Shown piece after piece: positions 55,670-58,447 of a stretch of DNA of 64,000 nt. Position 1 is the stretch's first letter. Each line of letters starts with the position of its first letter. The stretch covers positions 1 through 64,000 of the forward strand of contig CACYTP010000006.1 of the NCBI GenBank assembly GCA_902777385.1, in the 5' to 3' direction. Origin of the DNA: an uncultured bacterium. GTDB lineage: Bacteria; Cyanobacteriota; Vampirovibrionia; Gastranaerophilales; Gastranaerophilaceae. A program made the position numbers and the translations under genes. Below the pieces are notes generated by a model that saw only the letters and a program-made list of their open reading frames with translations, searched no databases and had not been told where the DNA came from.

Positions 55670-56059
55670 TTATTTTATAAACCTGCAATATCTTGTGTTG
55701 TACAAAACTTCATTATCAAGATATTTTATATCTGCGGTTGTTGAAGTAATCATTCCATAATCACTGTAATCATTGTAAACTCTTAATCCGACTTCTGAAA
55801 ACTTTTTTGCTACATCCATAGGTACATGGCAATCTATGTTATTTCTGTACAAAAAGTGACAGGTGTTGTTTTCCGTTCCATATATTTTTCTTGCCGAATG
55901 GGAATTTTCTTCAGATGATTCTATAGGTGTGCAGGAACTAACGTTTTTATAAAATGCTAATTCATTATTAACATGCTCTTCCAATACCTTATCTCTGGCA
56001 GCATAGCAAGTTAATCCGAATGTAACACATATTATTGATATCAGTATTTTTCTAATCAT
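55670..56059 (-). CDS. Secreted hypothetical protein, 129 aa
   Basis: From ATG 56059 a signal peptide (MIRKILISIICVTFGLTCYA) leads a mature domain with four cysteines (SSCTPIESSEE, TCHFLYRNNIDCHV, TRYCRFIK) that could form disulfides. The ATG overlaps the trmD stop by eight bases and AAGAGATAAC lies before it. An open frame extends to 56146, but that part lies inside trmD. Last gene of the rimM-trmD operon. Confidence 0.7.
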   Translation of the reverse strand: MIRKILISIICVTFGLTCYAARDKVLEEHVNNELAFYKNVSSCTPIESSEENSHSARKIYGTENNTCHFLYRNNIDCHVPMDVAKKFSEVGLRVYNDYSDYGMITSTTADIKYLDNEVLYNTRYCRFIK

Positions 56060-56753
56060 TGTTATCTCTTTTTTTAATATATTTATCATATAAGTCCGGA
56101 CGGCGTTTTTGGGTTCTTTCGATAGATTGTCGTAGTCTGAACTCATTAATTTCTTTGTGATTTCCGTTGAGTAATACTTCCGGAACTTTTAACCCCCGAT
56201 ATTCTCTCGGTCGTGTGTAATGCGGATATTCTATTAATCCGTTTGAGAAGCTGTCTTCATCAGCCGATTCAATATGTCCCAATGTCCCCTCAAGTTTTCT
56301 GCTAACAGCATCTATAAGACACAGAGCAGGAAGTTCTCCGCCTGTTAATACAAAGTCTCCGATTGAAATTTCTTTGGGGTTTATTATTTCCCGTATTCTT
56401 TCATCGTAACCTTCATAGTGTCCGCACATAAGAATAATTTGATTATAACCGGTTAGTTTGTTAACCAGTTCGTCGGTGAGAGGTTCTCCTTGGGGAGAAA
56501 GCATAATTGTTATGGAATTATCTTGCCTTAAAATACTTTCGTAAGCATCAACATAAGGTTGTGCCATTAGTACCATTCCGGCACCACCGCCGTAAGGAAT
56601 ATCATCAACTTTTTTATGTTTGTTTTCCGTGTAATCCCGTGGATTTATTGTATTAATTTTTACTATTCCGCTGTCAACTGCACGCTTTAAAATGCTGTAC
56701 TGGAAATAGTTTTCTATCATTTCCGGAAATAGTGTCATTACGTCAAATATCAT
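56052..56753 (-). CDS. trmD: tRNA (guanine37-N1)-methyltransferase TrmD
   Basis: TrmD methylates G37 next to the anticodon to prevent frameshifting. FDVMTLFPEMIENYFQYSIL, DIPYGGGAGMVLM, LMCGHYEGYDERI and IGDFVLTGGELPAL (the SAM knot) are canonical. The length of 233 aa is normal. It overlaps rimM by four bases. Confidence 0.97.
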   Translation of the reverse strand: MIFDVMTLFPEMIENYFQYSILKRAVDSGIVKINTINPRDYTENKHKKVDDIPYGGGAGMVLMAQPYVDAYESILRQDNSITIMLSPQGEPLTDELVNKLTGYNQIILMCGHYEGYDERIREIINPKEISIGDFVLTGGELPALCLIDAVSRKLEGTLGHIESADEDSFSNGLIEYPHYTRPREYRGLKVPEVLLNGNHKEINEFRLRQSIERTQKRRPDLYDKYIKKRDNND

Positions 56754-57262
56754 TCCAATAACCCCGCAATGTTATTAATCGTAATGCTTTTCCCTTTCAC
56801 ATCTACTTTTTTGATAAATGCTTCTACAAAAGGTACGAGTGAAACATGCTTGGTATTTGTTTTTACTGATAGCAAATCATTAGCACCGTTGTTTGATACT
56901 CCTATCACAAAGCCAAGTTTGTTCCCGTCAGTATCATATATATTCATTCCTACGAGTTCATCTATTAAAAACTCATTTTCATCCAAATTCTCTCGGACAA
57001 AACTTTCTTCAACAAAAATTAAGCAACCTTTATAATCCATAAGCTCATTTATTGAATTTATTCCTGAAAATTTAAAGAGTGCAAAATTTTTGTTCAAACG
57101 TACATTTTGAACATCAAAAGGCAAATAGTTATTATCTTTTCTGATAAAAACTTTTTCAAGTCCAAGTATAAAATCCTCTTGTCCACGGCTAAACCCTACT
57201 TTTGCTTCACCCTTTATGCCATGAAAATTCAAGATTTTACCAACGGAAATATATTTATCCAT
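56750..57262 (-). CDS. rimM: 16S rRNA processing protein RimM
   Basis: RimM helps mature the 30S head. The N-terminal RimM domain (VGKILNFHGIKGEAKVGF) and the PRC-barrel (DELVGMNIYDTDGNKLGFV, then LVPFVEAFIKKVD) are recognisable; 170 aa. It is next to trmD in the usual order. The upstream gene, which ends two bases earlier, is not the usual rpsP or khpA. Confidence 0.93.
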   Translation of the reverse strand: MDKYISVGKILNFHGIKGEAKVGFSRGQEDFILGLEKVFIRKDNNYLPFDVQNVRLNKNFALFKFSGINSINELMDYKGCLIFVEESFVRENLDENEFLIDELVGMNIYDTDGNKLGFVIGVSNNGANDLLSVKTNTKHVSLVPFVEAFIKKVDVKGKSITINNIAGLLE

Positions 57263-57264
57263 AA

Positions 57265-58290
57265 CTATTCTTCAGCCGGTTCTTCTTCCGATTTTTTCGG
57301 TTTTCTTCCTCGTTTTGGCTTATCTTCCGTAGCTTCGGCAGCCTGATTTTTGAATTCTTCAGGAGCATCTGCTCTGTCTTGATTCCAACGCTGAAGCCCC
57401 ATCTGGGAACGAATTAACCCAATGCCGACATGTACACGCCACTCATCCATCTTTAATTGTGCCGCAATAATTTTGTGACAGCCGATAGGAGGTAACGGTA
57501 ACAGTGGTTCATATAAATTCTTAATCGCAAACAACTGATCAGGTGTGATAGCTAATTTACGTTTAGGGAAAGGTAATTTTGGCAACATCATCTTTTGTCT
57601 TACAAGATTTATACCAAAGAATACCTTTCTTGGTTCTAAACCGATTTTTTCACCAATAACTTCGTGTGCATCCGGATTTGGAAGCGGAAGCATTGTCTTA
57701 TATAGTAATTCAATTTGTTCTAATTGCTCCTTACTTACTAAAAGCTGTTTTGGTGCTTTATTCCTGTTCATCGGACGTCTGTTACCAAATCCTCCACGGT
57801 TAAACCCGCCTTGCTGAGGTCTTCTGTTGTTATTAAATCCTCCGCGGTTGTAACCGCCCTGACGGTTGTTGTTATATCCGCCACGGTTATTATATCCGCC
57901 GCCTTGGTTATCACGTCTTTGGTAACCGCCTTGACGGTTGTTGTATCCGCCACGGTTATTATATCCGCCGCCCTGATTATCACGTCTTTGATAACCGCCT
58001 TGACGATTATTGTTATATCCGCCTTGTTGATTATATTGTCTTTGAGGACGAGGACGTTCTTCCCCTGCACTATAACTGCTGTAGAATTGCGGTTGATTTT
58101 CCGTGCTGTATCCGTTCATTGGTTCTTGAGGTGTCGGATTTGTTTCTGTATTTGCAGAAACTTCACCGCCTTCTGATGGGGCATTAATCATCATCTTTTT
58201 ATCAGGATACAAACAATCCGGACATATAACTCTTTTGGGGTTCTTTGTCTCAAATTCCCGACCGCACTTGACGCATTTGTTTACATACAT
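57265..58290 (-). CDS. Zn-ribbon / RGG-rich / duplicated-module protein, 341 aa
   Basis: Four parts are seen. A zinc ribbon has CVKC and CPDC (C6, C9, C23, C26). A low-complexity Gly/Asn/Arg/Tyr region (about 85-175) has RGG and GGYNN repeats like eukaryotic RNA-binding proteins. Two copies of a 55-residue module follow, about 185-241 (VSKEQLEQIELLYKTMLPLP, then GINLVRQKMMLPK) and 248-302 (ITPDQLFAIKNLYEPLLPLP, then GIGLIRSQMGLQR). The end is a basic RGRKPKK AT-hook-like tail. RNA binding and condensate formation are plausible but inferred. It heads the rimM-trmD operon where khpA/rpsP are usual. No family recognised. Confidence 0.78.
   Translation of the reverse strand: MYVNKCVKCGREFETKNPKRVICPDCLYPDKKMMINAPSEGGEVSANTETNPTPQEPMNGYSTENQPQFYSSYSAGEERPRPQRQYNQQGGYNNNRQGGYQRRDNQGGGYNNRGGYNNRQGGYQRRDNQGGGYNNRGGYNNNRQGGYNRGGFNNNRRPQQGGFNRGGFGNRRPMNRNKAPKQLLVSKEQLEQIELLYKTMLPLPNPDAHEVIGEKIGLEPRKVFFGINLVRQKMMLPKLPFPKRKLAITPDQLFAIKNLYEPLLPLPPIGCHKIIAAQLKMDEWRVHVGIGLIRSQMGLQRWNQDRADAPEEFKNQAAEATEDKPKRGRKPKKSEEEPAEE
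57780..58040 (-). repeat. Tandem repeats encoding RGG/GGYNN
   Basis: The unit encoding RQGGYQRRDNQGGGYNNRGG is repeated twice with few base changes, followed by shorter related units. The composition is much richer in G and C than the surroundings because of Gly codons. Length changes by slippage would stay in frame. Confidence 0.8.
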
Positions 58291-58408
58291 AATTAAAAGC
58301 CTCTTAATTGAAAAATTAAATCATAAACTAAAATAAAATGGTTCTTAAATCTTAAAAAATACTATTAATCCTCTGTGAAAATTCTTAATGATATATCTTA
58401 ATGTAATT

Positions 58409-58437
58409 ATTATAACATAAATGTCAAATATAATCAA
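58409..58437 (-). promoter_or_regulatory. Probable promoter of the RGG protein-rimM-trmD operon
   Basis: On the minus strand TTGATT (58437-58432) and TATAAT (58414-58409) are 17 bases apart, giving a leader of about 110 bases. The rest of the gap 58291-58408 has no gene or clear structure. Confidence 0.5.
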
Positions 58438-58447
58438 GATGTTAAAT

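Follow-up and report, generated by a model that had tools for sequence, protein, structure and literature searches.

Directly upstream of rimM and trmD in an uncultured Gastranaerophilaceae bacterium lies a gene whose product combines a four-cysteine ribbon, a Gly-rich low-complexity region and two copies of one module, and which the initial annotation regarded as holding the place of khpA and rpsP. This raises the question of what the protein does, and whether its position next to two translation-related genes is a guide to the answer. We examined it in the window, a stretch of 64,000 nucleotides (contig CACYTP010000006.1, positions 1 to 64,000), in the 2.3 Mb genome to which the window belongs, and in relatives across the class, grouped here into families f1 to f15, with the window in f1.

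Protein architecture and upstream region

The gene (57265-58290, minus strand) is an intact open reading frame that encodes 341 amino acids, the twin-module protein, and its ATG start codon is preceded by a conserved ribosome-binding site (Table 1). The N-terminal ribbon carries CxxC pairs at residues 6 and 23, the two knuckles of a putative zinc ribbon, and these pairs are kept, together with the motif FETKNPKR, in the family members that we read. Many Pfam zinc-ribbon models match this region weakly, none of them above its cutoff. The two modules, each of 57 residues, align without gaps at 19 identical positions (BLASTP E 3e-8), and their BLOSUM62 score of 92 compares with a maximum of 11 in 20,000 shuffles, so that the repeat reported by the initial annotation is real and not due to chance.

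Table 1. Features of the twin-module locus, in window coordinates
Feature	Position	Strand	Remarks
Sigma-70-type promoter	58409..58437	-	TTGATT-17-TATAAT, TG before the second hexamer; pattern kept in f1
Probable 5' leader, ~110 nt	58291..58400	-	Two conserved purine-rich elements
First leader element, GAGGA (GAGGAG-type)	58364-58373	-	
Second leader element, AATTAAGAGGCT	58298-58309	-	Ribosome-binding site region
Whole gene	57265..58290	-	Intact open reading frame; homologues in 41/43 good-quality relatives
N-terminal four-Cys ribbon, residues 1-35	58186..58290	-	Median identity 97%
Disordered-type linker, G/N/Q/R/Y-rich, residues 39-182 (about)	57745..58176	-	Net charge +12
Module 1, residues 183-239, predicted three-helix homeodomain-like fold	57574..57744	-	Repeat and structure prediction
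Module 2, residues 246-302, predicted three-helix homeodomain-like fold	57385..57555	-	Repeat and structure prediction
C-terminal tail, residues 303-341	57268..57384	-	Acidic overall, with basic AT-hook-like KPKRGRKPKK
rimM, next gene of likely operon (f1 only)	56750..57262	-	
trmD	56052..56753	-	4-base overlap with rimM

The basic, Gly-rich low-complexity architecture described initially is likewise borne out by the composition and charge of the linker, but the label "RGG-rich" fits at best the window member, which has 4 RGG, 8 GG[YF]N and 11 overlapping [FY]GG/GG[FY] motifs; across 121 family members the mean is 1.1 RGG per protein (range 0-7). Median identity of the linker sequence is only 49%, yet its composition is kept in all 121 members (Arg 7-19%, aromatic 6-14%, aliphatic at most 6%), every one of which has a net charge between +8 and +20. 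What is conserved is thus a cationic, aromatic, Gly-rich composition in which strict RGG triplets are few. The tail does contain the AT-hook-like stretch that had been noted, within an acidic whole, but the strict core RGRP occurs in 13 of the 121 members and the window protein has RGRKP instead, and we do not class it as an AT-hook.

In the upstream regions of f1 (window positions 58291-58447 and loci L060-L139), AATTAAGAGGCT is nearly invariant before the start codon; it overlaps the ribosome-binding site, and this is its only exact occurrence in the window. An Rfam scan of the window returned no match, so the conserved leader corresponds to no described RNA family. An upstream open reading frame within the leader was considered by eye and rejected, as its pattern was not consistent. 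Judged from this sequence conservation, post-transcriptional control through the leader is possible.

Genomic context and distribution

The order of genes in the window is as first described: ffh on the plus strand, followed on the minus strand by dtd, the twin-module gene, rimM and trmD, with 2 bases between the twin-module stop codon and rimM. This context is conserved within f1, where RimM and TrmD are in reach at all 80 loci and Dtd at 61. The rimM-trmD linkage is confined to that family, and in most families the gene stands alone. Its neighbours differ between families: in f4 and f7 dtd adjoins it and rimM-trmD do not, in f9 and f15 it is divergent from L-serine dehydratase genes, and in the carriers outside f1 that we checked trmD lies on another contig or far off.

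These arrangements bear on the proposal that the protein directly replaces khpA or rpsP at their own locus. It draws on the position before rimM-trmD in f1 and on khpA, which we did not detect: a search of the window genome for its domain (PF13083) gave a single sub-cutoff match, in a 528-aa open reading frame. By contrast, rpsP is intact elsewhere in the genome (G000:C1:65359) and khpA is not beside it. The twin-module protein has no match to the KH domain model PF13083. Sister families that retain khpA (f8 and f13) keep rpsP and khpA together without trmD, which lies elsewhere, with ffh also there in f8. Because rpsP is present elsewhere, the context is particular to f1 and the sister loci lack trmD, local replacement is very improbable, and the initial annotation's view that the protein holds the place of these genes is not supported.

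Two features of other genes were observed in passing. At the f10 trmD loci L221-L224 (G058, G063 and G069), TrmD is matched in two pieces within one open frame, which suggests an insertion within the enzyme. The longest form of the open reading frame at 55670-56146 (minus strand) overlaps the end of trmD; its start is more likely an internal Met before the signal-like stretch MIRKILISIICVTFGLTCYA.

In a species-level genome collection, most named relatives of the window genome bear the label Candidatus Gastranaerophilales or Melainabacteria and come from guts and rumens. The protein is present, in one copy per genome, in 161 of 240 class genomes, and is thus no peculiarity of a single strain. 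Carriers comprise f1-f7, families of the order Gastranaerophilales, in which nearly all complete genomes have it, together with three further families of the class (f9, f14 and f15). Searches of f8, f10-f13 and the sampled photosynthetic cyanobacteria did not recover it, and there even a diverse profile derived from distant members retrieved three fragments only (E 0.02-0.3). A search of a phage collection gave no match and hence no sign of phage origin. Some relatives, among them G010, G046 and G047, lack a match even though order mates carry the protein; most of these assemblies are at most 90% complete, and the missing matches are likely assembly gaps, with real gene loss possible. Close copies also occur in records labelled Brachyspira and Heliobacteriaceae (L066, L114), assemblies that are probably mislabelled or mis-binned.

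Over the 80 f1 loci, the median identity to the window is 97% for the ribbon and 96% for the modules, compared with 64% for RimM, 72% for Dtd and 76% for TrmD, a comparison somewhat biased because these loci were chosen by module match. In other families of the order, for which few genomes were available, the modules are 79-83% identical, against 58-60% for TrmD and 61-64% for S16. Such slow evolution relative to RimM, TrmD and S16 suggests, from sequence, a central job in handling DNA or RNA, and strong constraint on a single-copy gene fits a putatively essential role.

The distribution of other nucleic-acid-binding proteins introduces a different explanation, that the helix-turn-helix pair and the ribbon have rRNA, mRNA or the ribosome as their target, with the linker as a general RNA chaperone, and that the protein stands in for lost KhpA and RRM proteins as an RNA-binding or ribosome-assembly factor. 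Among 232 genomes of the class, 49 have a KhpA match above its cutoff, and those listed all lie in f8 and f13, neither of which has the twin-module protein; it is absent from all carriers tested. RRM proteins occur in 3/10 carriers vs 10/11 non-carriers, and none was found in the f1, f6 and f7 genomes tested, the window genome included. The constant presence of RimM and TrmD at the f1 loci points the same way. However, f10-f12 have neither KhpA nor the twin-module protein, and there is no rimM-trmD linkage outside f1. Moreover, the ten sampled carriers cluster together when TrmD sequences are placed in a tree, modestly supported (81/81) and next to f8 and f13, the families with KhpA; because carriers are one clade, with one gain on one branch, the anticorrelation comes close to a single event and may be one coincidence. 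The nucleoid protein HU is found in 22/22 genomes tested, which rules out the twin-module protein as a stand-in for a missing nucleoid protein.

Predicted fold of the modules

Profile searches against Pfam and NCBIfam gave nothing over cutoff, and a sequence search of the PDB gave no match. AlphaFold, run on an input of 39 closely related sequences, predicts two three-helix units (mean pLDDT 82, pTM 0.50). The top PDB matches in Foldseek, though weak, are POU structures and the double homeodomain of DUX4 (best E 0.088, prob 0.9). Compared singly with homeodomains, the modules reach Z 5.0-5.6 over 55-59 aligned residues, although values near 5 are common for small helical bundles and no fold match attains E 0.001. 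A viral fold library returned weak, generic helix-turn-helix matches and nothing else.

The Pfam homeodomain model (PF00046) scores 17.2 bits on the window protein and at best 22.3 bits in a distant member (E 1.2e-4, two stretches), both below the curated cutoff of 22.9, so that the modules match a known non-RNA family only at a sub-threshold level. The helix-3 signature WFxNR(R) is not found; module 1 reads V-F-F-G-I-N-L-V-R-Q-K in the alignment, the modules having Gly in place of Trp48 and Leu in place of Asn51 while retaining the Arg53 equivalent. Since the WFxN signature is absent, we do not file the modules as homeodomains. Taken together, the matches make a homeodomain-like helix-turn-helix fold likely for modules that had been called unrecognised, even though no single match is significant. 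Homeodomain-like three-helix folds are mostly DNA-binding.

In the predicted structure the third helix exposes conserved hydrophobics in addition to R and K, so that its partner may be a protein or RNA. Conservation is not limited to the third helices but takes in loops and the segment between the modules (LPLPN, PKRxLA, RWN), as in subunits of large complexes, and the ribbon weakly matches models of RNA polymerase subunit P and Spt4, observations expected if ribbon and modules were protein-protein surfaces of an RNA polymerase subunit, or of another machine, with the linker as a tether. We consider this improbable: none of the ribbon matches is specific or reaches its cutoff, and a linker that is cationic and aromatic in 121/121 members exceeds a tether's needs.

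Function and comparison with known systems

We favour, at a probability of roughly 0.4, the reading that the twin-module protein is a clade-specific, single-copy housekeeping nucleic-acid binder, more likely anchored to DNA than to RNA. In its favour are the predicted fold with its DUX4 and POU matches, the constraint on modules and ribbon, the basic linker, a stand-alone gene with its own promoter in f1, and restriction to one clade. Against it stand the weakness of the fold matches, the replacement of Trp48 and Asn51, the presence of HU, and the lack of KhpA and, mostly, of RRM proteins, which points to RNA. Also on the RNA side are the leader, which could serve autoregulation, and the likely operon that the gene forms in f1 with two translation-related genes. 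The fold matches also include helix-turn-helix domains of SelB in complex with SECIS RNA. Disordered segments rich in F/YGG bind nucleic acid and influence condensates (PMC9067507), and such a linker could serve a DNA-anchored or an RNA-anchored role alike. The closest folds are nevertheless DNA-binding, and we regard the RNA-binding or ribosome-assembly factor as somewhat less likely.

If the protein is anchored to DNA, the tandem homeodomain-like modules would clamp it in the manner of double homeodomains, as one extremely constrained unit. The ribbon might provide a second fixed contact, to nucleic acid or to RNA polymerase, and the cationic aromatic linker and the basic patch of the tail could add loose multivalent contact with DNA or RNA. 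The whole would then act globally, as a transcription factor or a nucleoid-associated one, and might form condensates locally. Co-transcription with rimM-trmD would have come about later, by rearrangement in a single family, and would not be the key to function. A more specific version seems to us unlikely: that a global regulator arose once, in the ancestor of Gastranaerophilales and the three further families, combining a double-homeodomain-like clamp for DNA (or RNA) with a phase-separating Gly/Arg/Tyr linker, and that its arrival coincided with the loss of KhpA.

A search of open-access papers found none on this protein. It is an unannotated, clade-wide protein, better conserved than S16 or TrmD, that reaches the cutoff of no curated family and has no sequence relative of solved structure; it is probably a central gene-expression component of a common uncultured lineage, and appears unrecognised so far. 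Its architecture is new and its folds are known, the combination being absent from the libraries searched.

Among known systems, KhpA is a small housekeeping RNA-binding protein, usually near rpsP, rimM or trmD, and is missing where the twin-module protein occurs; it differs in its KH fold, has no ribbon or disordered linker, and bears no sequence relation to it. The cyanobacterial Rbp proteins (RRM, PF00076) are small RNA-binding proteins of the same phylum, some with Gly-rich tails, but they have the RRM fold, which was not found in the window genome. Tandem double homeodomains (PF00046, DUX4) share the predicted three-helix fold, two tandem copies, a short basic linker and basic helix-3 residues like Arg53 and Lys55, whereas the modules score below the Pfam cutoff, do without Trp48 and Asn51, and are bacterial; nothing points to shared ancestry beyond the helix-turn-helix superfamily. 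The FET-type eukaryotic RNA-binding proteins (FUS, EWS, TAF15) combine a four-Cys zinc module, a Gly/Arg/Gln/Tyr low-complexity region and a folded nucleic-acid-binding domain. With these the twin-module protein shares architecture only, since it has no RRM, few RGG triplets and unrelated folds. A bacterial protein that links helix-turn-helix-like domains in tandem with a disordered region resembling that of FUS would make the role of disorder separable from eukaryotic complexity.
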